Shown one piece after another: positions 3,649-63,170 of a DNA stretch of 64,000 nucleotides. Both the position numbers and the translations under genes were made by a program. The notes under the pieces are model-generated. The model was not told the origin of the DNA, searched no databases, and saw nothing but the letters and a program-made list of their open reading frames with translations. The DNA comes from Tubiluchus corallicola. Lineage: Eukaryota; Priapulida; Priapulimorpha; Priapulimorphida; Tubiluchidae. The DNA is taken from assembly GCA_030141605.1 (NCBI GenBank), contig JAQGDQ010000487.1:62001-126000 (forward strand), given 5' to 3'. Position 1 is the stretch's first letter, and every line of letters begins with the position of its first letter.

Positions 3649-4825
3649 ACGTTGTGACAACATTTGTTTATGTCTACCGTAATTTGCCTTATAATTTACC
3701 TTACATAGCTATAGGGACTAGAATTGAACTCTGTTGCGGTCCTTCCTCAAAGATGCAATTGATTGATAGTGCATCTACGGTTGCCCACGCTGGCATGGGT
3801 TAATAACACGGGAAGCAATAAAAATGTGAACGGATATTAGTTCGAGAATAAGGAACAAACAGTTTCGTGTGATGTCCACCGAGAGATCGGTTGAGAAAAG
3901 AAATAATCTTCCACCAGAACGGTTAACACACTGGAGATTTTGTAACAGTGTATACAGTTTCGCAACGATGTTCGAGGAGTGTTACAGTTCACTCGATCAT
4001 AACTTAAACCATAAACGTAACTTTTGCTATCTGCGTCTGACCATAGATTATGTAATATCTGTTATCTAGCCGAAATACAGGGACCGTTATGTAGAGCATC
4101 CTGTTAGTTGAGGTTAGAATGTGCGTGCGGCTTTAAATTAAACAACATCCATTGAGTCTGCCCCAAAAATGTGTTTTCTGAATAACGTAATTATGTTAGT
4201 GATTGTTGTTCTCTGATACCTTTGCTGTAATTATAATGAAGGATAACTCACTTGCTCTATAAAGAAGGATAAAGCATTCGCTGGTGTTTATGATTGCGGG
4301 TGTTCACCAAACCGGTGGGTATATTACCTGCAGAATTTTGCGACACGCGAATTTTCAAAAAATTGTAAAAAATCAAATCTGTGTCAATTGACTGTAAAAT
4401 TTATAGGCTCCAAGCTTGAACATTGACCTACCATTGTGCGAGGTATCAAAATTTGCTACGTGTTGATAGTTTTTATGTGCAAATTTTTAAAAAATTCAAT
4501 CTGCAATGACTGATCCAAAAATATAGTAGACTTTAAGCTTGAATGTTACTCTCTGTGCGAGGTATCAATTTCTTACATTATTCCAGGGTTTAGAAAAGTG
4601 GTGATATATGGAAACAACCGACAATTCATTCTATTGTTTACCACTTACAGAGGCAATAGTAACTATTAAACCTTTGTGAAAAACACATATAATCGATCAA
4701 AATGTACAGACAGAACTCAAAAGACACACCACGCTAGTAGTGATAGCCTAGTTTAGAAATATGATTATAGAATATATAGAAACAATAAGAAAAAATTACA
4801 GTTAATATTAATGATTTGATATTAT
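3649..4825. other. Intergenic, no feature recognised
   Basis: No ORF here has coding character, and no tandem array or transposon end is clear. Two similar stretches, near 4395-4460 and 4510-4575, both read 'TTRAAGCTTGAAYRTT ... TGTGCGAGGTATCAA'. They suggest an old, short duplication. Confidence 0.4.
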
Positions 4826-6239: not shown

Positions 6240-9200
6240 GAACTTATACTAGAACTATACCTATACTAATATACTAGAACTTAAAGAAGAAATCCGCATA
6301 TGCACGCCACCCAGTGTCTCCATTTTAGGTAAAATGCCATGAAAACGAGCAAGTAATAATCTGTCATCTTTATCTGCCGAATCAAATGAACTAAATAACT
6401 CTACCAACTCCCGATGACGTTGAAACCCCAGAATCACGATCCCCTCCCGACCTCAGAGCCTTCAGCAGCCCAGCCAACAACTCCTCTGACGATCCCATCC
6501 CTAATAAAAGAGCAAATTCATCATCACAATAATGTAACAACATATAGAAGTACCTCACGATTTCTTTAACTACAAATCATACAAACAATCACTTCGGAAA
6601 GAAACCCGCGCTTACATAAAAGTTTTGTTTAAACAACAAAATAAACCGTGTCAAATAATAATCATTACACACACAAAAGCATGCACTATAATGCACAGAC
6701 ACACAAAATACACGCACACAAATGTGTAAGCACAAACAGACAATAGCCAAATATGAAGTATAAAAATCACGTTATTATAACAATACATACAAACTTTCGT
6801 TTATACTTATATAAATATTATACACCTGCAACACCTACAGACATGATATAATAACTATATAGCAACCCTTAAACACTAACTATAGTCGTATAGAACAATA
6901 TGAATAGGTAACAACACAAATATCATACCTCAAGAAAATAGAAAACACTTGCCGACGACGAAGACAGAAAACGGATTACAACCCCTATAAAGACACCGAA
7001 GAACAAAGCACCCCTACCCTAAAACAAAATAAAATATACATTAATCAACATAAACAACCCAACCGACAACAAACACGTTCGGTATTGACTGAAAAAACAC
7101 AAACACAACAAAGAACTCACTAGGACCAGGACCGACACCAACATAAATTAGTTAACTACAAACCAACATAGAAGATAATGCACTACAAAACGAAAACATA
7201 TTTATACAATATATTGTCACCCAATTTTTACCATCTTTAAAATTTTAGGCTCACTTCAGAAATCTTGTACCAAGACAATCTTATAGCATGAACACCTCCG
7301 CCAATACATACACCTTCAAACAATAATCATATACTTTGATCTTACTATAAACGAAACCAATTTTTGCAACAATTTTAACTTAATTATATATAAAACCATC
7401 TTGGCAGCAACTTTTAAACAACAAAATAATCAAACATGATCCTAAAAAACACACAGACAGAAAAGGGCGTGCGCGCGCATGCACCCACACTCGCACATGA
7501 TTACTCACCAAAAAGACAAATACATAAACAATACAATCATAACTATAAAAAGCAACACACACTCACACAAATAACACTTTAACAACTCCCAACTAAAACT
7601 CAAATCAAGCAAATTAAAATAGACAATAAAATGAAAAACCTTATTTCAAAGAATCAAGCTTGATAACAACTGCTGACAACAAAGACACAAAACAAGATGA
7701 CAACTCCACTGAAACAAAAAATAAAGCTTACATTACATAACACTAGCTACCTAACCAATAACAAACACATGAAAAAGTACTTTGAAAACTTAACCACATT
7801 TGAAAACTCACCAGAGCAAGCACCAACAAAAACAATCCTAACACACTAACAATCACAATCTCAGACTGCTAACTATATAGATACTCTCTGATAACTATAC
7901 CAATATCAAGTAATAGCTTTCAAACATACAAGCATACATAAAACACACACACGCACACACTCACACAAGAACAAATGCATACACTTGAACGATCAACAAA
8001 TAATTAGAATACAAAAATAACAAAGTCATAACTATGCATGAAAGCAGTCACCCATTTTAGCATTACATGTTTGTAACAAAACTCTGCTCTAAAACACCAA
8101 AAGGCAATACAGACACACAAATAACCTCTGAACAATCATCAACTACACCATAATTCCAGCCATACAAAATTACGAAAACAATAACATAAAATAACTTACC
8201 TCAAAGAACTAACTCAATCACAAGTGTTTACACCACAAGTAGGAACAAAGTGGCACCTCTGCTAAAACAGATTTTAAACTAGTAAAACCGCCAACCAATA
8301 ACAAACATACGCAATGGTACATAAAAAACTTAGCCACAACAGGAACTTACTAGAACAGGCACCAGCAAAACAACTGTTATCATTCCAACAACAACAACAG
8401 CTGTTTACATCACATAGCTAGCCTCTTGAATTTAAATCTTATCAGCTTCAATCACTCATATAAAACCTATGATACAGCAATCTCACTAACACGAGCACAC
8501 ACAACAATATTAAGCAACCCTACATTTCTTTACACATAGAAACCGCTATACACATTACTAGCTCTCTCAATCATATACAGTAATTTAACAACAATCAGTC
8601 AACTAAAGATATATTCGTAAAATGCACCCATACACACACAAAAACACACGCACACATGTACGCAATCGTACTATACTAATGTTACTATACATACAAACGC
8701 TCTGACATTTATTGAACGCCACACTAATAGTAACGTAGTCTCCTAAAACTTGTAAGCACAGCAGTCTTTCAAAACAACTAGCTTTCATTAATTTTCATAT
8801 ATAAACTACAAAAACCCAAACCTCAAAAGCAAGAAATTATAATCAGACAATCTCAAACACCTCTTACATGCAAACAGGAACTCTCACTTAAATATAATCT
8901 CCTAACAGCAAAACAAACCACCTGCAAAAAATATATAAAATCACAGCCCACAAACAAATAAACAAACACGCACACACACACACGCACATACAAGCATGCG
9001 CGCGCGCGCACACACACACGCACATACAAGCATGCACACACGAATGCTCACCAAATAAATAGAATATAAAAATAACACAACACATGAGAATTTCTACTCA
9101 TACCACTTCAGCATTAAATATTATAACAATTCTCTGTACTAAAATATCTAAATATAACACAAACACATAAATAACCTTTTAGCAACCATCAACTGCAATT

Positions 9201-11150: not shown

Positions 11151-12043
11151 TTAAAAAACGTTTTAATTTACTCTTGATTACTTTTAGTATAGTGATCATT
11201 TCTGTATAGTATACCACTGTATCAAATTTTGTTTATTCAGATAGCATCGAACTTCGAAGAATTGAAATTGCTACTTCCGTTGTTAATAACCAGACGTAAA
11301 TTGTGCTTTCATATGAATACTAAAGTAACATAATAATCCTTTTGTTTAAACGTGTAAATGCTGTTAAACAGTAAAAAATTTGGAGAAACGAAAAGGATAA
11401 TGGTTTTCAGCAATTACTAATATGAAGATTTTCTTGTTCTTCTGGTTTCTGCTTGTTCTGTTGCTGCTTTTTATTCCGATTATGTACTAGTAAATCACAA
11501 TTAATTACAGTAGCCATAATTAATCCGTAAACAAGTTGGCAGAGTAACAGTATGTATGTGTGTTTGTGTTAGCCTTAAATTGCAGTTTAAAGCACTATAT
11601 TTAAAGACTATCGAACACGAATGATGTTTGGTCATTTCCCTAAAACCGCTAGTTGAATGTGTAAAAAACTTACTTCAAATGTGCGATACGGGTTTTCAAA
11701 TTTATATTTTACCAATCGTGATGGTGACTAACGTTTCTAAACGTGCAGCGTCAGTCGAAATAAAGGGAAAAATGGCTAAGACAGCTCACACAGAGATACG
11801 ACAATTTTACATTTTTCTGGTGCAATCACTGCTAAAGTTAAGTTTCTTTTAATGAATTTGTGCTGGCGCTAGTCTGGAAATGAAAATATGTTAAAATTTG
11901 CGGCTCATATCTTCAATTTTCGCAACAATCCTCAGAGGTGTTTCAGGGTTTTTGTAATATGTTTCAAGTCGATAACAGAAAAGTTTAATTTTCTGCGTAA
12001 ACTTGGCAAACTTACAATCTAGTAAAATCGCAGGCAGCGAGTC
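11151..12043. other. 5' flank of the FkbM-type gene
   Basis: AT-rich, with no gene recognised. An in-frame TAA lies six codons before the ATG at 12044, so the coding frame does not extend upstream without splicing. No convincing TATA or initiator could be picked out. Confidence 0.4.
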
Positions 12044-13012
12044 ATGTCTCGTATGACAGACTGTGCTAACTTTACCTTTATAGGACTTACTGTAACCATA
12101 GGTTTCATCAACTTTCTGTCATGGAAGACTTCAGTTGGTAATGGAAAGAGTTCCAAAGGTAGATTTACTAGTTGTTGCTGTAGTGTGTGGCAAGGAAATA
12201 ATAATATCACAATTGGGAACGATATCTTACGAACGGAATTGGGTAATGCGACAGATGATGATAAACTCCTCATAACTCAGATCAGACATCATTGGCTCAT
12301 CGGGCCACCGCGTACTCCTTCAACTGGACATGTAAAAGATTCCTCCCAACTTCGACAATCAACAGTGGTTGACGAGTTATTAGGAGAGAAAAGAAATGGA
12401 TTCTATGTGGAAAGTGGCGCGGCGGATGGTACCATCTCAAACTCGTTGTTCTTCGAGAGAAATCGTGAGTGGAAGGGACTTTTGGTCGAGCCAAATCCGG
12501 AATTATTTAGGAAGTTGTTAAAAACAAAACGTAACGCGTGCTTTATTAACAGCTGCCTGAGTCCTAACAAGACTTCCAGCAGAGAAGAATTTACAATGGG
12601 AGGTTTATTGGGCGGCTTGGTACAAACAACTGATCCGGATCATGCTAAAAGAGTAAGAAATAGGAAAAATGGTGCAGTAGAAACTAAGACAGTTCAGTGC
12701 TTCCCATTATATTCTATAATGTTAGCCATGGGACGTACACATATTGATTATCTTTCACTGGACATGGAAGGCGCTGAGCTGAGTGTATTGAAAACCATTC
12801 CTTTTCAGAAACTCACAATAAATGTGATGACGATAGAATACCGGAGCAGTAACGGTACGCACATTAACAAACAACGGACGGTGGAGCGCCTCAATAGTAT
12901 CCGGACATTATTGCGCGATATCGGATTGTACGAGGAAGTGACTCGTCTACCTGCTGGGAAACCACAGAGTGGCATAGATGTGGTGTTCATGCGAAAAAAC
13001 AGTGTTACGTGA
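12044..13012 (+). CDS. FkbM-family (Methyltransf_21) methyltransferase, single exon, type II membrane-anchored
   Basis: A 322-residue uninterrupted ORF. Residues about 9-27 form a hydrophobic segment near the N-terminus that looks like a signal anchor (Golgi/ER type II topology, inferred). Residues 119-260 carry the FkbM fold. The SAM-binding motif I is VESGAADG at 122-129, VEPNP follows at 148-152, the conserved strand LSLDMEGAE is at 237-245, and TIEYRS is at 264-269. The core has no insertion or stop. From family knowledge, bacterial FkbM methylates a macrolide hydroxyl, while animal members such as Drosophila Star and many invertebrate paralogues are membrane proteins of mostly unknown substrate. 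The start is fixed by an in-frame TAA six codons upstream. A polyadenylation signal follows 130 bases after the TGA, and the gene converges on the SLC7 gene. Substrate cannot be stated. Confidence 0.85.
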   Translation: MSRMTDCANFTFIGLTVTIGFINFLSWKTSVGNGKSSKGRFTSCCCSVWQGNNNITIGNDILRTELGNATDDDKLLITQIRHHWLIGPPRTPSTGHVKDSSQLRQSTVVDELLGEKRNGFYVESGAADGTISNSLFFERNREWKGLLVEPNPELFRKLLKTKRNACFINSCLSPNKTSSREEFTMGGLLGGLVQTTDPDHAKRVRNRKNGAVETKTVQCFPLYSIMLAMGRTHIDYLSLDMEGAELSVLKTIPFQKLTINVMTIEYRSSNGTHINKQRTVERLNSIRTLLRDIGLYEEVTRLPAGKPQSGIDVVFMRKNSVT

Positions 13013-14727: not shown

Positions 14728-15072
14728 TTATAATAAGACAATAATGTAGATTTTGTCTGTGGAAACTACCACAAGGTGATCGTGTTTGTTATTCATTAAG
14801 TCAGATGTGCAAGAAATAAAATGATAAGGTTCACAGTCTTCTGCTAAACTAGAAACAACCGAGGCCATGCTTACTTTAACTGTACAATGAATTAAATGCT
14901 TACTCATAAATGACGTTGTCTTGGCATAGTAAACTAAAGGTACATAAAGAATCAACAAGACGACTATAAACATGAGTGCAGTGACATAAAGCCAGTCTGG
15001 ATCAGCTAATATAGGTGCAACAACCAGATATAGGGACACCAACGTCATAAACACTGGTATGAGAAGAGGTAC
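14728..15072 (-). CDS. SLC7 exon 8 (residues 410-523) and stop
   Basis: Begins VPLLIPVFM after a TTGTTACAG acceptor. It encodes TM11-TM12 and a C-terminal tail of about 60 residues that I do not recognise from vertebrate members. Confidence 0.9.
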   Translation of the reverse strand, partial: VPLLIPVFMTLVSLYLVVAPILADPDWLYVTALMFIVVLLILYVPLVYYAKTTSFMSKHLIHCTVKVSMASVVSSLAEDCEPYHFISCTSDLMNNKHDHLVVVSTDKIYIIVLL

Positions 15073-18000
15073 CTGTAACAATGACAAAAATATGAATGTA
15101 GAATATGAATGTTAAAAGAAAGTAAAAACAAAAATTTTATAAAAAAAACATCGCATTAAGTGGCAGTCTACACTTTGTGACTTTGTAGAAAGTAAACTCT
15201 ATTTCAAGTAAGTGAAGTAACAAACATATAAAAAACAGACAACGTTTGCTGTTATTACTCGTAACAAGACATAAGATTATTATAGGGATTTATTATACCT
15301 TTATGGGTCGCTCAATGTCAGGCCTGGTATGCCTCATCACAAGTAATGCCACAATTGCCGATCCATAGACCATCCAAATTAAGAAGCTATTAAAATCGAT
15401 TAGGCTATAAATATCGGCTAGAAGAATCGTAATCAAGCCAACAAACGCCTGAAAAAATAATTAAATTACATTAAATTGAGTGCGGGGGTTGTACCAGTGG
15501 TTGGCACAGTAAAATGTGTAACTTTAGTAGTCAGTATGTTCATAGTCACGAAGTGAAGTTGGGCATCCTTCTTGAAAAATGTTCTTTATCACCTATCTAT
15601 GTGCCTGCCTGTGTATCTGTCTGTTCGTTCATTTATCCATCCACTAATCCATGTAATGTTTGCCTATCAATAATAGTGAACTGCAATTTCTGGTTCTCAG
15701 TATCGTGTCAATCCATTTCTGATCCTGCTCAAGGTAGTAATACTCTGTAACTTCTTGCCCAGCTCTCAATAATGAGTCTGTAGTTTGTGGGTGTTTCTCA
15801 GTAGAGTTGTTTTGCATCAATTGTTTTGTGTAGCACTCAGTATAGGATTAGATTAGATAGTTTATTACACAACACATCACTTAAATTCAATATATAAAAT
15901 ATGTTAATTCATAATATTCAAAAGCAAAGAATTCTGTGAGGAGAAGGGAGGAGCCTAGCTTTCGAGCCCTTCACCCAAGTGTGGAACTACAAGTATCATT
16001 AATAACATTAACACAATTAAAAGATTATATATAAAAGCTTATATAACTACACGAAGCATACAAGTAGCAAAAGCAATTATTCACTTTAAAATTATTTCTA
16101 AAACTCAAGAAGCTTCATGATTCTATTTTCTAGTCCTGCTTTTAGTCTCTGGTCTATCTAGATACTTATTAATTATTTTTATTTAAACAGTCGAGTTTCG
16201 CCTGAAAGTAAATGCTACATGGAAATGTAAAACACTTGCTGCATTGCACATGTTGTACCTAAAGAAGATCCTACATGTAAATTAGTGGTTAGTGTGTGGA
16301 TTGTAATTAATGTATAAAGCACGTAATTATTTTGTTTACGAAAGTACTGTATTGATACACACGGCGCTTCTTCACTTACAGTGTTCTTTATTATCAGTAA
16401 CCTACAAAAACGATTTCACCAAAATGATTGCAAGTGTTTTTGTGCTTGATGTAACTTTTTTCCTCTCGTTACTAAAGCAAGCTCTATTCTAGCGTCGCGT
16501 TCAAACTAAAGTAAATTCGCCAAGTAACTTGCAAGCGTATTCAAACTAGGAGGAAAACGTGCTGTGAGTTACACTCCTAGGACCACGATTCGCTGTCAGA
16601 AATTTCCCGAGGCGTTCACACTAGACTGTAAATCAAATCGCATCAATTACAATTTATACCGTTGCCATGACGCCTGGTGAGGGTGTATATCTTGTCACAT
16701 GCACGTAGGAGAGAAATCTTGGGAAAAGGCTATCCCTGCCTGCTACGTTTGCAATCCGTGCAGCGCTGAAGCACAATCCATTGGCAGAACCAAACGTTGA
16801 GAAACATACAGATACTGGTATTATCCATGACATTACACCCAGCATCTCATCGGCCCAAGTCTAAAATTAGAAAAAATGGCAAACGATAAATTTTGACATT
16901 AAACTGACAAAATTAATGAAACCATGTCAAAACGCCCAGACATCAATGACAAACTGGGATTATTATCTGCCATTGCAAAAGTGTGACAGCACTGGCCACA
17001 ACAAAATGGGTACATAGTACTCGGACAAATACCGCTTGCGAATCTTATTGTTGCAGTGGTACAATGAATAATGACGTTTCCAAAAAGGTCTTTTTTGCGT
17101 TGGCGGTCACTCCTATGTTCAAATTTTTCACCAGTATGGGAGTTTGGGAAGTGAATTAAGGATTGTTCAAAAAGTGGGCGCATTTAAGTTATGTGGAATT
17201 GGTCAAAATGTCAAAATTTGGGCAAATAAAGGACGAAAGTCAACAAACAAGTTTTTCTTCCGTTATTACGCAGTAGAAATTACAGTGCTCAGTCTTTCAT
17301 TCATGTTCAAGTTGCATTGTGATTACTGTTCATGCTACAGTTCAAATTATCTTTCAGAATTTTCAATTTATGATTGTGTGTTTTAATTTTAGTGTTAATG
17401 AGACAAAGAAACAGAGAAATAGACACACACGAACACAGAGAGGGTGCGAGTGTGAAAGAGAGAAAAAGAGAGAAAGAGAAGACAGAGAGTAAGAGAAAAA
17501 AGAGAGAATGCTAGGCATAGCCATTAATTACTGTTGTAATCTAAAAATAGGTACCACGGCGACAGCGTCAGAAGCCAACAATTGTTCTGGTGACATCACT
17601 GTGAAATATGACACATTGGTAAATACATAAAGAAAGGTAACCATTGGTACGCCAATGACGAGTGCCTTTATCAGGTTCCTGTGAACACATCAAGTCAAAT
17701 GATATACATTAGCAAATCATTCAGCTACGGCTGCTTCGAGTTCCCATGTTCTGTCATAACAAAAAAATATAAAACGTACTGAAATAAGCACTTACAACAA
17801 TTTCGCTGACTTTCTTCAGGGTATGCGTATAATCGAGTGATCACGATTCCCGCTTAACGACCAAATTTAATAAATACTGAGGCTGCTCAGTGAATGGACG
17901 GATAATAACCGGTCCAATCTCGTTCTAGGCGGTTTCACTTGCTGTACAGTCCATATCAACAATGGACATTCATCTGGTAAAAGGAGAATGTGCTGACATG

Positions 18001-20139
18001 AGCCTAAGACATCTCTGCCGAGTCAGTGTCTATATTATAGAGCACAATCCGTACAAATAAATGAAGTTTTGACAATAAATTTTCAGTTTTAAGATTCTGG
18101 TCCTGCCACAATCATTCAGAAGTATGCCGTGCCACTGAGTGCTGGAGTCTGCTGTGTTGTGAATAGTATAAAACGTTATTTCTGTGTGAATAACAGTCTA
18201 ATGGGCTGAATGAATGTCATTAGGGAAACTACTTATTATTACTGTAATTACTTATTGCCGGTAGCTATAAAAGTTGCTTCAATATTGCTGCCAGTTTGGT
18301 ATATATGAGAAGAACGCTCGTGCATACATGCTTTATATATGTCAGCAATTAGGACTGGCCATAGGTTTAAATTCAGCGTGTGCTCTTTGTAGTGAGTAAG
18401 TTTGCGTGAAAACTGGAAAATAACTAAAATGTCACCTTTTGTGCTGCTTATAAATTTGCAAATACGGCAAAAAGTAAATTAACAATGTCAATATCTTTTC
18501 ACAGGTTAATGCAACTTGTATTTTCATTTACATATTTACTTATAGTTATATAAATATCCTTATAGTAGTACGAATCACATGATCACAAACTTTAATGCCC
18601 TAAGAAAAAACTACATTACCATCACGCCAAACAGTGGTCCAAACAGTTTCTTCCATTTAATTTCACTTAGTGTAAATAGGATGACATAAAATTTGTTATT
18701 TGTCTTGCCAGCATACAAACAGTTTTTGGAAATACCTAGCTACCTAGCTGAGTTATTTTGAGCTAGTTTAAAGCAGCATTCGTAGCCAATTTTGAATTTA
18801 AATCTCCATAACTTTTTTTCGCCAACGTGGATTCCAACGAATGTTGAATACGTTATTCTGTACGACTTTCTGAGTGTCTGTGCAAAAATTCAACTTTACA
18901 CTATTTTTGTCAGGGTAAAAAGTTTTTTTGGGTGGTCAATTTGACTGGACCATACGTGACACTATGGGACTGAAACAAATGCAAATATTTGACGCAAACA
19001 CAAAAGGGCTTACCGCTGCTAACCGCAGGTATAGCAAATGCCGCGACATCTTTTAGCGAAATTTCAAAAGGTTGTTTTTATCCCACGGTTAATTAAGAAC
19101 ATCTAAAAAAAATCACCATTCGCTGCCTGAAACGAAAATACGCTTACAGAAATTCTTACCCTTTATTCTTTAACTCTTCTGTGACGTAATTGGTGTTGTT
19201 CCAGCCGTCGTAGGCTGCCAAGCTGCTGTAGAAGCTTAGTGCGATGTTTGAAATTGACGTGCTCACTTCCGGATCAAATTGATCAAATCCGTTCACAAAG
19301 TGTTGCGTTTTTCCTGAAAAAAGGATCCCTTCGTTGATAACTTAAGACTCGGAAAATTATGGCATAGTCATTTTCTGCGATTTGACCTTATGCACATTCA
19401 ATACAAGGAATAAATAAGTACCCAGATAAGGGACGTTTTTATAACAGAAACATTACAGTGATGCTAAATAAAGTCACAAATCAAGTTCCTCTACCTTCCA
19501 CACTTATGCCGGGCGCCACAATCCATTAATTCAACAAGACTGTAAATTTCAATTATAGTATAAACTCACCTAAAAATAAGTTGACTGCGCCTCCACCTAT
19601 AATTATGAGAAGAGCCAACACCTTGACGAACATAAAAACGTTTTGAAGTCTTGCTGACCATTTGACACCTTGACAGTTAACTCCAGCTATGAGCACTACG
19701 AAGGAAACGGCCATTCAATGTTAAAATTAGCTGTAACAATTAACAACAACAACAACCACAACAACAACAACAACAACAGCAGCAGCAACTATATTAAAAG
19801 TACGTATCAGCTACTGAGACTGGAATTCACAACAAAGATAATGGTGAAAATTGTTACTGCAAAACCAAGCTGGATCTTACGAAATAGCTAAATAACAAGA
19901 ATATTTTTTATTTAGTGGCATAACAAAATAATTCACAAGTTCGTGCCAGATTATTATGAATTAAGCGTCATCCGCAAATGAGACCACAAAAACACCGTTA
20001 AGTCGCATCATATTAGGAGGAGCCATGATAAAAAACAGCTCCGAAAATGAACGACAGAAAAAAGTCACAGAATAAAAGAGGAAGACAGAAATATGACAGA
20101 GAAAGAAAGAGAGAGAGAGAGGGAGAGACAGTGAGAGAA

Positions 20140-20231
<92 letters not shown>

Positions 20232-21727
20232 CAATGAATAGCACTCTGCGTGGACTTAAGAAAACTGACTACACTCACTAGTTTGTCATAATGCAGTAGT
20301 ATGGAAAAATTAGCTTACAATAGAGGGTATGACATGGTTAAGCTGGAGTAAATAATGGACTAGCGGTAAATAGTTCGCACTTATTTGCAGTTGTTTACGA
20401 GTTTTGTTAAATGTACAGACTCGATTTAGTATATGAACTTGAATCTTATTTTTGTCACATTATTAGCAAAACATGTATATGACCGGTTGCGCATATATTA
20501 AACATATTCTATTTTAATAGAGTACGTTTGGATATCTCTAACATTCTATTTTGCATTTCTAATGCACAGCTCGAAGTAGAATAAGCAACTAAAATGATAA
20601 CATTTTTACCTACATAGTAAAATAATAGCTGTCATTTTCAACAAGTAGTTCGGTACAGGGCAATCACCATATATAAATGACAGTCCATAAGTCGCTGTGA
20701 TTTGTGTGAGGGTTGCATAGCTGGTAGCTCTAAGAAGAAAACCCATTATCCATGCCACAAGAAAAGCTGGAATTTTGCCAAGAAATCTGTGCTTTGCACT
20801 TCGCCCAAATGCTTCCATTACGTAACTGTATTCACCGCCCGATAAGGGAATCATGCTTCCAAGTTCAGCATAACAGAGCGCACCTACAGATAATAATAAC
20901 AATACCTTGTGACCAGCAACCGTAGACCTATAGTTAAGGATATCTGCATCGACACTTACAGAGGTTTTCAACTTCTTAAAAGTTATTTTCTCCTCGTTAT
21001 CCACTGAATATTTTTAAAATAGTGTTTGAATATTTTGTGTAGATCAAAACAGGTGATCACATATAACTTTTCATGAATAAAGTAGTTCCAGTAATACAAT
21101 GATATGACGATTATCATTATCATCAAAGAAAAACCTGTAACTGGCAAAATATATCAATAGGCAGGTGCTTCTTGTTGCTAGAACTACTTTGCTATCCTTT
21201 GTTGTTGGCAAGACGCAGCAGTTAATAACATAACTTTGTTTTTAGCCTGCTGGGGAACCATATTGATGTGAGGCTTGCTTGTTTCGTGTGGGATTCTGTT
21301 TTGTTTCAGGTTGGCCCGGTGAACAGTGATGTTGTTAAGGCGTTTTTATCAGCTACATTGCTGGAAGTTATAAACGTAAGAATGCTTTCTTGTTGAAAGA
21401 CAGCAAAGCTTCACCCACAATTGACAACGTTCAAGGATCAACTTTCTCTCTCACTCTCTCTCCTCTGCAAAGACTGCAATAATGATAATTCTCACACATT
21501 ACATGTGAATTCAAACGTTACTCACCAAGCATTGCCAGGACTCCTCCTAACGCCCAAATAACTAAGCACAGTCCAACAGATCCCGTCCTTTGAAGCACAC
21601 TTTTAGGCGTGACAAATATGCCACCTCCAACCATAGTTCCAACAATAAACGCCACTGAGGAGTGCAGACCCAACGTCTTTTTTAATTCGAATCGTTCTGT
21701 TTCTTCGCATGCTTTCTTTTTGCTCAT
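14728..21727 (-). CDS. SLC7 (LAT/CD98 light-chain type) amino-acid transporter, complete, eight exons
   Basis: Spliced on the minus strand from exons 21727-21526, 20883-20614, 19695-19570, 19313-19160, 17678-17555, 16860-16660, 15448-15299 and 15072-14728. All junctions are GT-AG and in phase. The product has 523 residues, normal for the 12-helix heteromeric transporters (LAT1/LAT2, y+LAT, b0,+AT, xCT). TM1 carries the substrate loop as GGGIF (34-38; usually GSGIF). [15 protein letters not shown] follows at 72-86. Cys142 in the DCPVP loop sits where family members form the disulfide to the heavy chain (4F2hc or rBAT). [20 protein letters not shown]-like and RPIKVPL blocks complete the match. 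An in-frame TGA just upstream fixes the ATG. Expected role: exchange of neutral and/or cationic amino acids at the plasma membrane. The exact subtype cannot be settled by eye. Confidence 0.93.
15299..15448 (-). CDS. SLC7 exon 7 (residues 360-409)
   Basis: TM9-TM10 and the conserved R-P-D-I-E-R-P-I-K end, exactly 50 codons. The donor is GTATAA, weak but supported by the protein match across the junction. Confidence 0.92.
15847..16010 (-). mobile_element. LINE 3'-UTR remnant in SLC7 intron 6
   Basis: On the minus strand it ends in AATAAACTATCTAATCTAATCC. This parallels the AATAAACTAATCTAAATT end of the LINE at 40527-41010, and both are preceded by a related AT-rich stretch. A strong hairpin (GGGCTCGAAAGC.AGGCTCC) lies at 15950-15970. 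It has no coding part. Confidence 0.45.
16660..16860 (-). CDS. SLC7 exon 6 (residues 293-359)
   Basis: TM8 with [20 protein letters not shown] and the [16 protein letters not shown] loop, ending before TM9. Both ends are phase 0. Confidence 0.93.
17400..17512. repeat. Purine-rich (GA) tract in SLC7 intron 5
   Basis: An AGAGAAAGAGAGAAAGAG-type low-complexity run about 40 bases from the exon 5 donor. Confidence 0.75.
17555..17678 (-). CDS. SLC7 exon 5 (residues 251-292)
   Basis: Encodes [21 protein letters not shown]7, and the [14 protein letters not shown] block. It joins exon 6 in phase 0. Confidence 0.93.
19160..19313 (-). CDS. SLC7 exon 4 (residues 200-251)
   Basis: TM6 region with the hallmark [16 protein letters not shown], then VTEEL. 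Acceptor CCTTTTTTCAG, donor GTAAGA. Confidence 0.93.
19570..19695 (-). CDS. SLC7 exon 3 (residues 158-200)
   Basis: TM4 end, the [14 protein letters not shown] cytosolic loop typical of the family (VNC-x-SVKWATRVQ), and TM5. Acceptor TTTCCTTCGTAG, donor GTGAGT. Confidence 0.92.
19739..19792. repeat. (CAA)n/(CAG)n trinucleotide repeat, SLC7 intron 2
   Basis: About 17 CAA-type triplets followed by three CAG triplets, in the intron directly upstream (in gene sense) of exon 3. Confidence 0.9.
20107..20229. repeat. (GA)n microsatellite, SLC7 intron 2
   Basis: A pure GA run of about 90 bases with an impure leader. It produces Glu/Arg and Leu/Ser shadow ORFs. Confidence 0.95.
20614..20883 (-). CDS. 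SLC7 exon 2 (residues 68-158)
   Basis: End of TM2, the YAELG...PLSGGEY signature, TM3, and the exofacial loop with Cys142 (DCPVP). The donor GTAGGT was chosen over a second GT five bases on because only it joins exon 3 in frame (IILL|LLIAGVNC). Confidence 0.92.
21526..21727 (-). CDS. SLC7 exon 1 (residues 1-68)
   Basis: Cytosolic N-terminus, TM1 with the unwound GGGIF substrate loop, and most of TM2. The donor is GTGAGT, and the exon ends after the first base of Gly68. An in-frame TGA precedes the ATG. Confidence 0.93.
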
Positions 21728-24258
21728 GTTGGATAACGACGTTCACACTCTTCGTCAGTAGTGCTGCGGTCAGGGCGTACACAGCTGTGCCCAAAAAAAG
21801 AAAAACTCGAACCTCGAAGCAGGTTCACAATTTAAAACTCACGCGCGCGCATTTAACCTTATTATTCAAGTATTAATCCTATGCACCTATGCTTTTATGA
21901 TATTCGTAACGTGAATGTCACGAAATTAATTATACCCAGATATTATCACATGTACTCTGCGGGTTAAATAGATCACAATCATCACGCTATCAGATAGAGC
22001 TTTACACAAGGAACATTATTCGAGCAATATGACGCCATCACAGAACGGGCAGCAGAAAGTTTAGCAACACATATTTTGCTAAAGTCATTTGCAGGGGCCT
22101 TGGTACAAGTAACCAGACACGTAAGTGAACTTCGAACTAAAATAAGCTTCATGACTTAGTACTGTACTGCAGCACCACCATCATAAAGTCAATGTTTAGC
22201 TTATAATAAATTATAATGGGCGCCTCAAAGTAATGTAATGTCACATTATGGTTTACATCATTTTTTAACAAACGAAACAAACACTTTAAAATAGGTACTG
22301 ACGACTAAAACTTTTGAAAATCACATTTGTGGAGAGAAGTGAACTTTTTCTAAAAGCACAATAAGGTCTGTGTTTTCCTCATTTGCATAACCTTAATTTT
22401 TTCAAAGCAGCAGCAGTTTAGATTCGAGTACTTAATTAATTACGATTTTAACGTCCCCGTCATGATGATTTTTAAAAATTAAAAAGATCAAAGCAATTAA
22501 GTGAGCATCCCTGTTTCCCTCCTCTCTTTTTCTCCTCGGTCCTACATCAGTGTCTCCCTTCCACCCACTAATTTGCTCACTTACACCATTCCTCTCTTTC
22601 TGCACCTCCTTCTTTTGCTCATTTTTCCTTACGTCAAATGTGATGAAAATCTATAAAGAATTACACAGTACTTCACAGTCTTCATTGGTAGACTTTTTAT
22701 AGTAACTTTTTACATGAGAATCACCTTCAGCAATGCTAATGATGAAGGAGTATTGACCTTATTGTATAAACTTTTCTCTTGGTGTAGCTGATAAAACATT
22801 CACATGCTGCCTAATCTGTCAAATCGTTTCCTGAAAATATCCGTCTTTCTTGCGGCAAAATGAGTTCAGTACTTACTAATAACTGTGAAGAAAATCACAC
22901 CACAGATACATTAGAGTATAATAATAAGAATAATTCACATTAATGTGCCATCACAATCAAAAACTTTATTTTACTCCAGAAAGTTTGACAGAATAATATA
23001 TTAAAAAGGCTAAATCTTACGAAAATTTTTTCTCATCTACGAAAAAGCAATACACCAAAATAAATTCATAAGACAAGAAAACCAACAATGTTACACAGAA
23101 GGCATGACGTCATCATAACAATAAACGATTAGAAAATGAATATTGTATATTATAATTTAAAGAAACCTATAATTTTTTAGCATCGTTGGCAGGCAGAAAA
23201 TTTTTGTGAGCATAACCCTACACAAGGAATTATCCTGGGTAGTTTCACAATTACACTACTTGCGGGCATATATCCACGGAGTTAACATAGCTAGAATACA
23301 TAATATCCATTGTCTTAATACAGCATAGTTAGCATATGACCAATGAGAGTGAATAAGTCTCAAATAGCAAGTATCTTGAGCAGTTAAGACTAAATATGCT
23401 GCTTCCTGCTCTTGACATTCACAAAAAAGTTGTGGGATGTAGTACAAGCTGTTAAACAGTTAAAGAGCTAATCTAAACTTTTTCACTGCTGCCTCACACT
23501 GTACACGTGAACAGTATAATGAGTATAAGAAAAGATTACATAAAATGTCTATAATTTCTTCATAAAAAACAACCCCTGAGTTTACCTTTCTGAAAAAATG
23601 AGCAAATACAAATTTAATCTACATACAAGAAAAATGACAACAAAGTCCTGTAGTTTGAACTAAAGTGTGTCTATACCTGTATTATGGGTTGCATTTTCTC
23701 ACATTTAGGTTACTGCAAAATTCTATCTGCAATACAACATACTTTTATGATTATATGAGATCTGCATGGTAATTATAATTATATAATTATTATTATAACT
23801 ATTTGTTATAACTGTTAAATCTAATTGTACATAAATATTACTTGTATAACAACTATTAGGCAAGACAAAGTACCAAGATATAAATGATTAATATTAACTC
23901 ATCTGCATTAAGACATTTCCCATGATGTAATGCTTTAAAGTCATTAGTAGTTAAAAGTGAAAACATATAAATTTAAATTTGCAGATCAAAAACGTTTCAG
24001 TTCAGAAGAGATTAATGAGCTGTACCTAATTAAGTAATTAATACACATTTCCATGATACACAATCTGCTAATCTATTCTTGTTAACTTGTGCAATCCGTC
24101 ACAGTCCTAATCTCAATAACAACCATTGCCCAGAAAAATCACCGGTTTTGATCAAGTGCCATAAGTTAACAATTAAAGACGCAGCTCTACTGCGCTATAT
24201 TCAACACACTAACAAATCAATGCTAAACTCTTCTTAGATTGTTAGACTATATGCCAGA
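21728..24258. other. Intergenic region between the SLC7 start and urease stop
   Basis: Contains the SLC7 5' flank, a pyrimidine-rich patch at 22508-22625, and the urease 3' flank with many AT-rich stretches. No conserved coding sequence recognised. Minus-strand AATAAA-type hexamers occur near 22965, with ATTAAA near 23612. Neither can be assigned as the urease poly(A) site with confidence. Confidence 0.4.
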
Positions 24259-26841
24259 TTAGAACATAAAGTAACGCTGAGACAGAGACAGCCTGTTAGC
24301 AGGTGGGCAATCAAGTAGTAACTCCCGCATATGCTCTCTTTCGTCCTCCTCATAAACAAAAACTTTGTAAGACTGAGGATCTACTTTCATTTCTGGACAA
24401 TAATCGTTGAGCACCATATGAGCTTTCTGCAATCCTCTGCACTTACGCACTGATTCCATCTTCTTTTTTATCCCATAGGTTCTCGCTGCTCCGGACTCGG
24501 CGCACACTTGTGAAACGAAGACAACAGAATTATGAGCGACAGATCGGCCGTAAGCTCCGAACTGTTTCCGCTGCTTCACTGGCTCTGGTGTCGGAATTGA
24601 AGCATTCGGCATGCCCATTTGAGCCCAGGCAATCTGACCGCCTTTGATTATGATTTCTGGTTTTGCCCCAAAGTGGTCAGGTCTCCATAAAACGAGATCA
24701 GCCATTTTATCGACTTCGATAGATCCTATTACGTGAGACATGCCATGAGCAATTGCAGGATTTATCGTGTACTTTGCAATATAACGTCGCACTCTCATGT
24801 TATCATTTTCACCTTTTTCATGCTTCAGACGGCCTCGGAATAATTTCATTTTGTCTGCAGTTTGCCAGGTTCTGGTAATTACTTCACCAATTCTTCCCAT
24901 AGCTTGAGAGTCTGAAGATATCATGCTAATAGCTCCCATATCATGAAGAATATCTTCGGCTGCGATGGTCTCGGCACGGATACGTGACTCAGCAAATGCA
25001 ACATCTTCCTTCAAATTCTTGTCTAGATGGTGACAAACCATCAGCATATCTAGATGCTCATCAATAGTGTTCTTTGTGTAGGGTCGAGTTGGGTTAGTAG
25101 AACTTGGGAGCACATTTGGTTCTCCGCACACCCGAATGATGTCAGGTGCGTGGCCGCCACCAGCTCCTTCTGAGTGGTAAGTGTGTATAGTGCGACCTTG
25201 AAAAGCTCTGATAGTATCTTCAACACAAGCAGATTCATTCAGTGTGTCCGTGTGAATCATTACAGGGCAGTCAAATTTTTCAGCCACATTTAAACAGGTG
25301 TCAATGGCTTTGGGAGTAGATCCCCAGTCTTCGTGAAGCTTAAAACCAATGGCACCTGCTCTTAACTGTTCTTCAAGCTCTTCTGCCACTCCACGAGTTC
25401 TAGATGTGTTACCTTTTCCAGTAAATCCAAAATTAAGTGGAAAGGCATCAGTGCTCATAATCATATGTTTGATATGGTTTGGACCAGGAGTGCAAGTAGT
25501 TGCATTTGTACCTGTAGCAGGGCCAGTGCCACCGCCAAACATGGTTGTTATTCCTGAAGCAATGGCGTCTCTCGCTAACTGTGGACAGATAAAATGAACA
25601 TGGCAATCTAAGGCACCTGCTGTTAGTATCAGTCCTTCACCAGCAATTGCTTCAGTGCCGACACCTACGACCATATGCGGCATAACTCCGGCCATTACAT
25701 CAGGATTCCCAGCTTTACCTATACCAGCAATTTTACCATTCTTTATTCCAACATCTGCCTTTACAATTCCCAGTACTGCATCAATAACAAGTGCATTAGT
25801 AATAACAGTATCCAGTGCGATGTAGTTGCTTACCTTTGCTGACTGTCCCATGCCTTCTCTTAGCACTTTCCCACCTCCAAATTTACATTCATCTCCATAC
25901 ACGGTAAAATCCCTTTCTACTTCAATAAGAAGGCTAGTATCCCCTAAGCGTATTTTGTCACGGACAGTTGGACCGTATGTTCTGGCGTACAACTGTTTGG
26001 GCATTGTGCAATGGTAATCAACAGCAGCTTCTTCTGTGCCTTCTTCTGCCTGATGTTCAAACCCAAGTTCTCTAACTTTTTCCATAATTGCTATTATGTT
26101 ATCTGGCTCAACTTGCCCATCACATAAACCATTTCCACCACGGATAATCTTGTCCCCATCAATTTCACACAAAGGCACAGTTTTTGTCTCTCCTGGTTCA
26201 AATCTAATGGCTGTACCAGCAGGGATATTCAACCGGAAACCGTAAGCGTTATGCCGATCAAAGCGAAGAAATCTATTGGTTTCAATAAAGTGGTAGTGAC
26301 TTCCTACTTGTATCGGACGATCGCACATACTCGTGACAGTCAGCATTTTCTTTACCCTACCGTAATTCATCTCGATGCTTCCTTCAGGGCAAATAATTTC
26401 TCCAGGTACAACATCCACAGGTGCATCAACCGATTCTCCCACCGCAGTCTCAGAAGAGCTCGTACTGGTACCAAACACAGCTACATCAGGAACAGGTAGA
26501 AAGCTTCCATAAAGTGCCTGTTCTAGGTTACCGTTTTCCCTGCAGATTGGATTGTGCACCGTAACAAGTTTAGTTCCATCTGCAAACGTTGCTTCCACTT
26601 GCACTTCACGAATCATATCCGATACATTTGGCATTACCTGTCGGTATCCCAATAATTCTCGTCCCTTACTCATTAGATCTGCAACACTGTGTCCATCTCT
26701 GACGTATTCCTGAATTTGGGATGCAATGAGCGCAACAGCTTCAGGGTAGTTCAACTTTAGTCCTCTTGCAAGCCGCTTCTGAGCCAAAAATCCTGCCTGG
26801 TGCACCAAGAGACTTTCCAATTCTCTAGGACTCAACTTCAT
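24259..26841 (-). CDS. URE: Urease, fused gamma-beta-alpha chain, intronless, complete active site
   Basis: An 860-residue single-exon ORF. Urease hydrolyses urea to ammonia and carbamate with a di-nickel centre. Domains run in the plant/fungal fused order: UreA-like about 1-100, a short Ser/Val-rich linker (about 125-147), UreB-like about 148-260, and UreC-like about 283-860. Nickel ligands fall at His414, His416, carbamylated Lys501, His530, His556 and Asp644. The last four intervals equal those of Klebsiella UreC (K217, H246, H272, D360). The interval from the HxH pair to the Lys is four residues longer, because of a small insertion near 490-494. The mobile-flap Cys603-His604 pair is intact, and the chain ends in the usual LSQRYF-x-F. 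An in-frame TAA four codons upstream fixes the start. No accessory protein (D/E/F/G) is encoded in the window. Neighbours are spliced animal genes. Confidence 0.96.
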
Positions 26842-26858
26842 CTTGAGAAGTTATTTAA
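26842..26858 (-). promoter_or_regulatory. Splice acceptor and 5'-UTR start just upstream of the urease ATG
   Basis: In gene sense the sequence reads TATTTTTTCCAG followed by 17 untranslated bases and the ATG. The pyrimidine tract and CAG suggest that the untranslated leader is spliced, although the coding part has no intron. A matching donor is proposed near 30082. This is inference without transcript data. Confidence 0.45.
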
Positions 26859-27999
26859 CTGGAAAAAATATAGAAAGAATCATGTGAAATGGTTGTGGTG
26901 AAATTGAAGCTTGGATCATTATCAAGGTAATAGCTCCTAGACAGACAGATACAAAGTAAACCGGCAGAGGTATCTTAACCATTCCAAGTACAGAACCAGG
27001 TGACGACCCATCTAGTCACAGATAACTTCACCATCATTCTTGGCTTGGTTGCCACTCATCTCATGACCACTTGACTATTTATTGCCTCAAAACGTTATCT
27101 ATGTTTATAGTCATAAGGTGTATAGCGGGTGTCACTTTATGCACACACATATCTATTCTGTAATGATATTCTCATCAATTACTTCTAAGTAGTAAACACG
27201 TAGCAGAGCACAGTCAGCTACATGTGTAGCAAGGCAGCATCAAATGAAGAAGTAGTAAAGTGTGTTTTGCTTTTCTGATAATTTTTTAATTTAAAAAATT
27301 TCAATGCTAAGCTATGAGTTATAGAACCTATTAATTGAAACTTTCAATGCCAAGAAATAAAAATCTGATCGGTGTACTTTGCTGTTTTGGCTACACCAAC
27401 ATAGCTACTATTGTCTAGAGTCTACTTGTAACTTGCATTTATCAAAGACAGTTCTACAGTTCTCTTTTTTTATACATTTCAACACTCTGCACATTTAAAT
27501 TGTAATAGTTAACCGCTGTCTTAGATGGGTTTTAATGGGAACAGAACTTTGCTCATTATGAATGATAATCATCCAATGATGAGATACTGAATCCATGAAG
27601 ACAAAGATAACTTAACCATGATCTAATGGGTATACAATGTCCCTCAATGAGGAAATAAGATTAGCATGTGGTAGAACCGTAGAGTAGCAGATGAAACAAC
27701 TCAGATAAAACAATTACTCTTTTGGGTGGCCTATGCATTAAGCGGTGGTGTTTTCACCTTGTACAGGTCTCCCAGGTCAATTTATTGAGTTGCATCCTTT
27801 TACTGATGTGTCAATTTGTTATGTCTAAAATAATAAATATCAGAAGCTTTCTTCTTGGCAATCACCTATCTATTTACTAACTGTTGTAATTGTTTAACTG
27901 CTACGTGCTTTATTGTCTTCATTATTATTTACAGGCAGATTCACTATAAATATGTATGCAACTGAAGAAATGTGTGGCTCAACTGGCAATTAGAAATTA
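26859..27999. other. Urease 5' flank or leader intron, no gene recognised
   Basis: AT-rich, without coding ORFs or recognisable transposon ends. It leads into the 1,041 bp tandem duplication. Confidence 0.35.
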
Positions 28000-35060: not shown

Positions 35061-35830
35061 GTTGCCATGCCAGAAGTCGCCTAAAACTCACAAGATTCAT
35101 AAATTATACCAATGATAAAAACTCAATAGAGGAGAAACTGAGCAGAATGGATCTCGTTGTAAACAAAAATAAAGCTAAAGAGTTTCACATAACACGCCGT
35201 GGTGATGAATCATGGCAAAGGTGCAAGTATCTCGGTAGTCTACTGGCAACAGAACACGACGTATCAAGACGGAAGATAATGGCATTATCAGCTTACTCAA
35301 AACTCACAAAAGTTTTTGAGAATAGGAAAACTTCTTTGGAAACAAAAATTAGAATATTCTCAGCCTTAGTTGAAACTGTATTTCTGTATAACTCAGAGCT
35401 CTGGACATTAAAAGCAAATCATAAAGCTGAAATCGATGCGTTTCAAAGGCAAAATTACAGAAACATTTTGGGTATTAGATGGCCAAAGAAAATTTCAAAC
35501 AAAGATCTATATGAAAAAATAAAAGAAGAACCTTGGACAAGAAAAATAAAAAGACGCTGTTTCAGATGGATTGGGCATATGCTTAGACTACCTGATAATA
35601 TTCCAGTGAAGATAGCTCTTCAACAAGCCATAGAACCAGCTAAAAACCCGCAGGAGGACAGATGTTAACATATCTAGATTTTGCACAGAAAGATTTAAAC
35701 ACTTCAGCATTGATCCTTAGAAATAAATGCACTTGGGGCACTGCGGCGAGCAGGGAGTCCTGGCATAGGGAGGTGAGCAGAATCATGTCACTGGACGTGT
35801 GATTCATTGGATGATGACGTTGATGATGAC
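35061..35830 (+). mobile_element. Non-LTR retrotransposon (RTE-like) reverse transcriptase 3' fragment, disrupted
   Basis: An ORF from 35147 to 35668 (173 codons) encodes the end of a LINE reverse transcriptase and its C-terminal extension: YLGSLLATEHDVSRR, the LYNSELWTL-type strand, ILGIRWPKKISNKDLY, and RRCFRWIGHMLRLPDN. The frame then breaks. The expected end (W-G-T-A-A-x-R-E-S-W-H-R-E-V-x-R) reappears near 35728-35803 in another frame. A GATGATGAC-type tail at about 35811-35830 closes the copy. It is 5'-truncated and dead. RTE/BovB-like is my best family guess from the tail and motifs. Confidence 0.8.
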
Positions 35831-38121: not shown

Positions 38122-38315
38122 TTAAAACACTTGCCAGTACATCCAATTTTCTTCAAAACTTTCCTTGGTTGCTCCTCTGTTCCGTGATCTAGGCAGCTTC
38201 TGCGCGGTACGACGACCAGCTCCTTTACGACGAGACCCCTGGCGGCTTCGAGTGGATCGACGTCGTCTACCTTGTTGCCGACGACTGCGACCCCTCCTAC
38301 TGCGAGATCGTGACC
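38122..38315 (-). CDS. Candidate terminal exon, Arg/Ser-rich basic protein
   Basis: An island of GC-rich DNA in AT-rich surroundings. On the minus strand a very good acceptor (TTATTTTACCTTTCAG) leads into a 63-codon open stretch ending in TAA. The first 47 residues hold 20 Arg plus many Ser/Gly (RSRSRRGRSRR...), and the end is ...ENWMYWQVF. Codon use matches the AT-leaning genes nearby. The + strand of the same DNA (38193-38322) also makes a plausible internal exon: acceptor GATCTAG, donor AAAG|GTAAAA, with a balanced peptide containing GGFEWIDVVYLVADDC and very high GC3. Only one can be real. I lean slightly to the minus strand. No family is recognised for either. Confidence 0.3.
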
Positions 38316-39096
38316 CTGAAAGGTAAAATAAGTAGGTAGTCCTTTAAGTCAATACAGGCGTGTTTTAACGTGTAAATATAACGTCTTCTTTGGATTGTGG
38401 TCTCGAGGCTTCTCCTCACTAGGGCCTAAACGCCTACAGTTTGTTCGCAAAACTCTGCTGCTTCTTGTAGTCTTACCCTAGAGATTCATAAATGTAGAAC
38501 AGCTATCGATACATACAGTTTTCTTCCGGGCTTCTTAAATTTGGAATTGTGTAGCAAGAACGTGCTTCCTTGAACGATTTGCCTCACTCAAGAATATTAA
38601 CAGATGAGTTCTATAACCAGCAGATTAGTAGTATGAATCTTATTTCTCTGGGCATGTGGGCTTAAATCATATCTCACTTTCTTACTGTAACTTTTTCTTT
38701 GGGTGGCCATTGGCGTTGTTTGGGGCGTTTTTTTATAAAAATGTACATCTTTTAAAAAGACTTTGGCGTTTTGGGTGTGGGCCGGTGGAGGACCTGTACC
38801 ACTGTGGAGGTGGGTGCTTAAAATGCGACTTTCTAATGAGTGCAGTGAAAATTGAAAGCACGAAAAGTGACAGGAACTCTGTGTAGCTGAGTAACTAATT
38901 GTTCAAATCGGGGTCTATTACACGCCCTTTGTTTTTCTGGTATTCAATAATGACATTGTTATGAATATTAATAGTAGCTTTTAACACTTCATTGATTGAC
39001 TGATTGATCATTTACATGTAGTTTCGCAAAATTCGGCAAAGTAATTAAATTTTCATCGTAATGAACCCAAAGCGTATTACTCTCTATAAAAGGGAA

Positions 39097-46087: not shown

Positions 46088-46695
46088 GAAAGAGTTGATT
46101 GTGGATTCTGTGCACGAGAGTTGATTGTGGATTCTGAGCAGGAAAGAGTTAATTGTGGATTCTGTGCAGGAAAGAGTTGATTGTGGATTCTGTGCACTAG
46201 AGTTGATTGTGGATTCTGTGCACGAGAGTTGATTGTGGATTCTGTGCAGGAAACAGTTGATTGTGGATTCTGAGCAGGAAAGAGTTGATTGTGGATTCTG
46301 TGCAGGAAATAGTTGATTGTGGATTCTGAGCAGGAAAGAGTTGATTGTGGATTCTGTGCACGAAAGAATTGATTGTGGATTCTGTGCACGAGAATTGATT
46401 TTGGATTCTGAGCAGGAAAGAGTTGATTGTGGATTCTGTGCAGGAAAGAGTTCATTGTGGATTCTGTGCAGGAAAGAGTTCATTGTGGATTCTGAGCAGG
46501 AAAGAGTTGATTGTGGATTCTGTGCAGGAAAGAGTTGATTGTGGATTCTGTGCAGGAAAGAGTTCATTGTGGATTCTGAGCAGGAAAGAGTTGATTGTGG
46601 ATTCTGTGCACGAGAGTTGATTGTGGATTCTGAGCAGAAAAGAGTTGATTGTGGATTCTGAGCAGGAAAGAGCTGATTGTGGATTCTGTGCAGGA
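46088..46695. repeat. 26/28 bp minisatellite, 22 units, downstream of RUFY
   Basis: Units of GTTGATTGTGGATTCTG(T/A)GC followed by AGGAAAGA (28 bp) or ACGAGA (26 bp), 22 copies counted. Two binary variants (TGTGC/TGAGC and 28/26 bp) mix along the array, with a T-T-A three-unit motif repeated at units 13-18. It starts about 200 bases past the RUFY stop codon, so it may lie in the 3' UTR. Confidence 0.95.

Positions 46696-46900: not shown

Positions 46901-63170
<16,270 letters not shown>

Follow-up and report, generated by a model that had tools for sequence, protein, structure and literature searches.

The urease gene

The window, that is, the whole 64,000-nucleotide stretch of DNA analyzed here, covers positions 62001-126000 of contig C2178 in a 343.5-Mb assembly of 2344 contigs. 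On its minus strand, at 24259..26841, lies an intact urease coding sequence of 860 codons, taken from the list of open reading frames and running from ATG to stop; at the local base composition, the chance of 860 codons free of stops is approximately 1.6e-24. The preliminary description of this DNA had recognized the uninterrupted 860-codon frame without assigning it a strand, and had stated that all nickel ligands, the carbamylated lysine and the flap Cys-His pair are kept; both statements are borne out by the domain and residue comparisons.

Four Pfam domains occur in order along the protein, all above cut-off: the gamma domain PF00547 (26545..26841, minus strand; residues 1-99; 4.9e-44), the beta domain PF00699 (26113..26406, minus; residues 146-243; 1.9e-39), the alpha N-terminal domain PF00449 (25645..26007, minus; residues 279-399; 1.1e-52) and the amidohydrolase catalytic domain PF01979 (24637..25629, minus; residues 405-735; 1.9e-72), which encloses the nickel ligands and the flap. 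Among NCBIfam models, 20 families were matched, with urease subunit alpha at the top (8.1e-284), and in phmmer the alignment to pigeon pea urease (4g7e) covers residues 1-859 and that to jack bean urease (3la4) residues 1-828. The three urease domains are thus carried by one 860-amino-acid frame, which is the eukaryotic single-chain arrangement. In the active-site numbering of jack bean urease, all 13 active-site positions, mapped via an 83-sequence alignment, are identical in the animal protein; they include the nickel ligands H414, H416, K501, H530, H556 and D644 and the flap pair C603-H604. Across 80 prokaryotic rows, the flap cysteine is the sole mapped position that varies (77 Cys, 3 Thr). 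A profile search of the 343.5-Mb assembly for urease alpha returned a single match, the gene in the window.

Genomic setting and codon use

Downstream of the urease gene and on the same strand lie pieces of an SLC7-type amino-acid transporter (14728..21742, minus). Four of the five transporter pieces tested matched PF13520, two of them above the cut-off (20609-21013 at 6.8e-9 and 16657-16860 at 2.1e-7) and two below it (21521-21742 at 7.3e-4 and 19159-19341 at 3.4e-4). Further along, an open reading frame on the plus strand at 12029-13009 was assigned by Pfam match to the FkbM methyltransferase family. In all, ten pieces of the window were compared with Pfam, and none of its families matched the fifth transporter piece, 14731-15111, or 61423-61554, 35063-35665, 38193-38324 or 6397-6525. 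The earlier picture of a urease set between genes of eight exons each was not confirmed: transporter pieces were found downstream, and no multi-exon gene was established upstream. Elsewhere in the window, a coiled-coil-like exon (61423-61554, minus) presumably resembles a RUFY-type protein, and an open frame at 35063-35665 (plus) looks like the C-terminal region of a reverse transcriptase of LINE type, both lacking a Pfam match. Two tandem arrays, at 46088-46695 and 47622-49151, are built from units of 28 bp and 34 bp in 22 and 45 copies, respectively.

The preliminary description had also judged codon use to be neighbor-like, and the little data that these frames provide support it. The RSCU correlation of the urease gene with the pooled FkbM frame and transporter pieces is 0.62 (0.33 and 0.47 singly, with the neighbors correlating at 0.20 with each other), whereas that with four bacterial alpha genes ranges from -0.45 to -0.57. 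Third-position GC follows the same division, being 0.36 in the urease gene, 0.40-0.42 in the neighbors and 0.80-0.86 in the bacterial alpha genes.

Accessory genes in the same genome

The preliminary description had pointed to ureD, ureF and ureG as genes to be sought in the genome, and all three were found, on contigs other than that of the urease; a host-encoded set of UreD, UreF and UreG therefore accompanies the enzyme, as in a eukaryotic urease system. UreF is represented by one match, a single coding exon of 237 amino acids on contig C2281. At 4260-4412 of locus L085 (minus), the exon with UreF starts after an acceptor-like site and holds another open stretch of 46 codons, the TGA of which lies 14 nt before the UreF ATG (ACCATGG context); UreF may be co-transcribed with a gene upstream of it, or its 5' leader may be long. 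For UreD, one match above the cut-off was obtained, on contig C1472, and a three-sequence bacterial UreD profile recovered the same piece and two more, ordered and on one strand (E values 3.2e-12, 5.3e-6 and 1.3e-10), so that UreD comprises three pieces or more. UreG gave four matches on contig C2030, each alone below the family cut-off, and a two-sequence bacterial UreG profile identified six pieces there, in order and on one strand. Joining these pieces across five junctions, four of them GT-AG and the other an inferred GC-AG site picked by hand to preserve the conserved EDxEFL, yields one open frame that contains the P-loop, CPH and a His-rich N-terminus. The UreG gene (locus L090, C2030:383000-392900, minus) accordingly displays one apparent GC-AG intron boundary (CAAG before the boundary, GCAAGT after it) among GT-AG ones.

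A search of the assembly for UreE_N (PF02814) gave no match, although a gene split into short exons could escape such a search; to our knowledge, plants have no UreE. The NicO nickel transporter was likewise unmatched in the assembly. By the integrity of its frame, its residues, its copy number and its companion genes, the animal urease is an intact gene of the host. That it is host-encoded is well supported by its single copy, the transporter pieces beside it, the several pieces of UreG and UreD, its host-like codon use and its grouping with plant ureases (see below).

Exon structure and the question of a retrocopy

The coding sequence of the urease gene consists of one exon. Immediately upstream, the order on the coding strand is TTCTTTCTATATTTTTTCCAG, then 17 nt, then the ATG. 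The first of these elements comprises a predicted 3' splice acceptor, with a pyrimidine tract (16/18 pyrimidines) and CAG, at 26859..26879 (minus), which would end a 5'-UTR intron; the 17 nt between the acceptor AG and the ATG (26842..26858, minus) would then form the 5' leader of the coding exon. A comparable acceptor lies at most 30 nt upstream in 3 of the 2434 ATGs on both strands of the window. Because a strong acceptor stands 17 nt before the ATG, a non-coding first exon and a 5'-UTR intron are probable for this gene. Four donor-like matches, at three sites between 3.2 and 9.0 kb upstream, are candidate donors, and none stands out. The term "intronless", applied to the gene at first, therefore holds for the coding sequence but probably not for the gene as a whole, given the predicted acceptor in its 5' UTR.

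Several features bear on whether the gene arose by retroposition. Within 2.5 kb downstream of the stop there is no A-run of at least 7, and polyadenylation-like signals occur there at +640 and +1288. The urease-alpha search of the assembly, with its single match, revealed no parent copy. Short repeats of 14-30 nt flank the gene, none prominent as a target-site duplication, and old duplications would have decayed. The gene thus departs from a processed retrocopy, which would be expected to have no introns at all, the remnant of an A-tail and a parent gene elsewhere. A recent retrocopy was considered and is disfavored by the lack of a parent, the lack of an A-run and the probable 5'-UTR intron.

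An old retrocopy is a stronger candidate, albeit still an unlikely one. In such a history, a spliced urease mRNA would have been reverse-transcribed and inserted next to the SLC7 gene; the copy would then have acquired a 5' exon and taken the place of its intron-bearing parent. The single coding exon of the urease is compatible with these events, in a genome in which UreG and, by its pieces, UreD are split, and so is the absence of a second urease copy. However, the failure to find a parent in the assembly, the absence of an A-run downstream and the probable 5'-UTR intron weigh against an old event as well, and UreF is likewise a single coding exon, which may mean that a low intron number is common in part of the system.

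Bacterial relatives and their gene fusions

Prokaryotic relatives were sought in a scan that confirmed 593 loci, of which the best 80 were used, with further sampling of two phyla. The six highest identities to the animal protein in this set of 80, 65.1-67.5%, all belong to loci in which a fused gamma-beta gene adjoins alpha: L001, L037, L052, L056, L064 and L076, comprising four Verrucomicrobiota, one Planctomycetota and one locus without a phylum assignment. Five further bacterial rows among these 80 (three of them partial) reach 63.3-64.8%, also above the 62.8 and 62.7% of the plant ureases, and in the two-phylum samples the identity to bacterial alpha subunits rises to 72%. A gamma-beta linker of 17 protein letters precedes the beta domain of the animal urease and has similar counterparts in the two plant ureases and in the six loci. 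Its motif GSFLPVP is common to the animal, pigeon pea and all six loci, with GSLLPVP in jack bean, whereas six outer Verrucomicrobiota loci have GSGL without LPVP. The linker stretch is absent from L008 and L049, which are also gamma-beta fusions.

Accessory genes lie close to these ureases. Pfam and NCBIfam models identified UreD beside L001, L052 and L056, UreF beside L001, L037 and L056, and UreG beside L037 and L064; BLAST with the animal proteins located UreD in all six loci and UreF in five. UreE_N is absent from five of the six genomes, and the other (G003) has two matches, on other contigs. In even samples of the two phyla, any urease match was found in 45/288 Verrucomicrobiota genomes (37 of them matching alpha with an E value of 1e-100 or lower) and in 45/294 Planctomycetota genomes (22 with such a match). 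A single match spanning gamma and beta to about residue 250 or beyond occurs in 7/37 and 16/22 of these, respectively; the phylum counts were taken by hand from tables, with G105, which has one match over 1-244, excluded. Open reading frames were inspected for six fused Verrucomicrobiota loci besides L001 and for all 12 Planctomycetota loci fetched, one of the loci (L119) having a stop inside alpha.

None of the prokaryotic loci examined as open reading frames (80, some of them partial, as the best of 593; then 15, 12 and 4) encodes a three-domain fusion. Such a fusion had been suspected in four genomes with an open frame above 800, and separate alpha frames were present in all four. Fusions of beta to alpha, in contrast, are found in 8 of the best 80 of 593 loci (L002, L009, L011, L024, L045, L054, L061 and L071), and an added locus, L099, also has a single frame over beta and alpha. 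The beta-alpha fusion has thus arisen outside eukaryotes too, in bacteria of several groups, and a shared fusion is therefore not strong proof of one event. In two Planctomycetota loci, L108 and L109, alpha follows the fused gamma-beta gene in the same reading frame, separated from it by a single stop; in L109, a TGA and one codon separate the fused gene from the alpha ATG. This arrangement is possibly a step toward the eukaryotic single chain.

Phylogeny of the urease

Urease trees were computed from 38 of the 83 rows and then from 24, 24, 35, 37 and 28 rows chosen for spread; L024, L045, L070, L074 and L075 were dropped or unused as partial, and the 28-row tree excludes L112, L114, L119 and others. 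Eukaryotes are represented by three ureases, those of the animal and two plants, and the accessory proteins by one eukaryote. In the 38-row tree, the plants and the animal group together (SH-aLRT 96) as sister to the six loci, with joint support of 100. A careful 24-row tree unites animal and plants at 99/95, and the AU test gave p 0.0274 for the animal with the six loci without the plants and p 0.045 for the plants with the six loci without the animal; trees of alpha alone and of gamma-beta alone show the same grouping, at 92 and 85. With six more Verrucomicrobiota loci (35 rows), the eukaryotes (99/96) lie inside the fused clade (9 rows, 99/98; 15 rows, 100/99), and placing the animal with all 12 fused bacteria without the plants gave AU p 0.0066.

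Planctomycetota were added in the 37-row tree, in which the eukaryotes group at 81/68 and the fused clade with the eukaryotes at 100/98 (AU p 0.0098). In the 28-row tree, with fewer outgroups, the corresponding values are 75/60 for the eukaryotes and 97/96 for the inner set with the eukaryotes. A clade of the 21 gamma-beta-fused bacteria without the eukaryotes was rejected by the AU test in this tree (p 0.0235), whereas three other arrangements were not. These join the animal to the inner bacteria to the exclusion of the plants (p 0.109), join the plants to the inner bacteria to the exclusion of the animal (p 0.138), or group the animal with L109 and L116 (p 0.224). Animal and plants are together in every urease tree, with the reservation that their support declines from 99/95 and 99/96 with sparse bacteria to 81/68 and 75/60 with dense bacteria. 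Within the sample, the nesting of the eukaryotic ureases inside the gamma-beta-fused Planctomycetota/Verrucomicrobiota clade is firm, and a single entry of urease into eukaryotes appears likely from these trees. As the sampling consisted of the best 80 of 593 loci and two phyla, closer prokaryotic relatives may have been missed.

Kinship of the accessory proteins

For the UreG and UreF trees, sequences were filtered by length and near-copies (Pseudomonas, Bradyrhizobium) were then thinned, reducing UreG from 52 to 50 rows and UreF from 44 to 42. The animal UreG groups with those of L037 and L064 at 100/99, in a tree that carried a long-branch warning and in which the bootstrap had not settled; UreG lies within the flank in only these two of the six group loci. 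In BLAST these two UreG proteins score 278 and 257 bits, a small lead over the next sequence at 237 bits, and both have a His-rich N-terminus. The animal UreF, a long row of odd composition, groups with all five UreF-holding group loci at 100/98, and its BLAST scores are 115-132 bits for these loci versus at most 72.8 elsewhere. The six best matches to the UreD pieces are the six group loci (57.8-77.4 bits; next 34.3). By sequence comparison, then, the closest relatives of UreD, UreF and UreG among the prokaryotes sampled belong to the same group of loci as those of the urease.

Origin and function of the system

Since the enzyme and its three chaperones share the same nearest prokaryotic kin, one ancient operon is suggested as their source. 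We put a probability of about 0.55 on the reading that the eukaryotic urease system in its entirety (the enzyme, UreD, UreF and a His-rich UreG, without UreE) derives from one operon of Planctomycetota/Verrucomicrobiota type, the gamma-beta fusion and its linker being inherited and the beta-alpha fusion being eukaryotic. The source operon would have been of the type ureD, fused ureAB, ureC, ureF and ureG; it would have entered early eukaryotes as a set, from a Planctomycetota/Verrucomicrobiota-type bacterium, and beta would then have been fused to alpha. For an old bacterial acquisition, entry early in eukaryotes is more likely than entry into this animal, a judgment that depends on the monophyly of animal and plant ureases, for which support is weak when bacteria are densely sampled. 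Of the three origins first offered for the gene, namely a retained gene that lost introns, a retrocopy and an old transfer, the retrocopy loses ground in its recent form, and the old bacterial origin gains it, for the whole system and probably at an early eukaryotic stage. The kinship of all four proteins with one operon type provides a concrete, checkable source for a eukaryotic nickel enzyme system.

A doubtful alternative is that such an operon passed from Planctomycetota/Verrucomicrobiota-like bacteria to animals and, in a separate event, to plants, with an independent beta-alpha fusion in each. The 75/60 obtained where the fused clade is most densely sampled and outgroups are few, and the three arrangements that survived the AU test, leave room for such parallel histories, bacterial beta-alpha fusion is recurrent (the eight of the best 80 of 593 loci, and L099), and an intron-free coding sequence would fit an acquired gene. 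Against this, the animal and two plant ureases come together in all urease trees, their three-domain fusion is the same, and a fused single gene is described as the general eukaryotic form in an excerpt of PMC3073912.

As judged from the plant enzyme family, the single-chain gamma-beta-alpha protein would assemble like jack bean urease, with two nickel ions bridged by carbamylated K501, and would convert urea to ammonia and carbamate. Nickel would be loaded by the host UreD, UreF and GTPase UreG, and the His-rich first piece of UreG may take over the nickel delivery that is performed elsewhere by UreE. The gene is very probably a host-owned, functional urease of eukaryotic type, its function being predicted from sequence. 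With the enzyme and three chaperones in the genome, nitrogen recycling or pH control by the host itself, apart from microbes, becomes testable; the possible physiological uses include urea-nitrogen recycling and pH or carbonate chemistry.

There is little to recommend the view that the protein is decayed or repurposed and non-ureolytic: the Aplysia and sea urchin ureases are characterized in an excerpt of PMC2667541 as orphans without nickel transporters, their nickel use being left open, and NicO is unmatched in the present assembly as well, but the 13 mapped active-site residues are all retained, UreD, UreF and UreG are present, and active ureases are reported from Riftia host tissue in part of PMC8789280. 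Contamination of the assembly or a recent bacterial transfer into it, for which the single-exon coding sequence and the identity of up to 72% to bacterial alpha subunits might be cited, can be practically dismissed in view of the lack of a three-domain fusion in the prokaryotic loci examined as frames (80 best of 593, some partial; 15; 12; 4), a codon use opposite to that of the bacterial relatives, the intron-split companion genes on other contigs and the predicted splice acceptor ahead of the ATG. Placement of the protein within bacteria, which the preliminary description had proposed as a sign of contamination, is inapplicable in that form, as plant ureases fall in the same bacterial clade and the companion genes are intron-split. 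A viral contig set contained no urease match.

Comparison with known urease systems

Helicobacter urease (chains 1e9y and 6qsu, matched by phmmer) is a gamma-beta fusion. In this respect it is like the animal chain, but it lies outside the trees computed, so a common fusion event is not implied. The jack bean (3la4) and pigeon pea (4g7e) enzymes resemble the animal urease in their single chain, domain order and 13 active-site residues; jack bean urease is 62.8% identical to it across 810 aligned positions, and pigeon pea urease 62.7% across 832. In the animal protein, by comparison, the linker between gamma and beta is longer, and there are two inserts, one of 4 residues near residue 480 and one of 9 residues close to the C-terminus. 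The Planctomycetota/Verrucomicrobiota operons, the nearest prokaryotic relatives sampled, share the GSFLPVP linker in the six named loci, but have two genes (ureAB and ureC) where the animal has one.

Ureases of animals have been published before. They are recorded for Aplysia and Strongylocentrotus in an excerpt of PMC2667541, which also describes vertebrates and insects as being without urease, and for Nematostella, Branchiostoma and Ixodes in an excerpt of PMC3073912; for Acropora, genes for urease and accessory proteins are listed in part of PMC3750612. These earlier cases are likened to the present gene by description, as a urease sequence in an animal (in Acropora with an accessory protein also), rather than by exon structure or orthology. 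The lack of a NicO match in the present assembly is in line with the description of the Aplysia and sea urchin ureases as orphans (PMC2667541, in excerpt). For plant ureases, a prokaryotic transfer into unicellular algae was suggested earlier (excerpt of PMC5599630, citing Ligabue-Braun 2013), and the portions of the open-licence literature searched do not name Planctomycetota or Verrucomicrobiota as the source of a urease system. The animal urease as such was already known in print, and the less expected part is the kinship of the full system with one type of bacterial operon.
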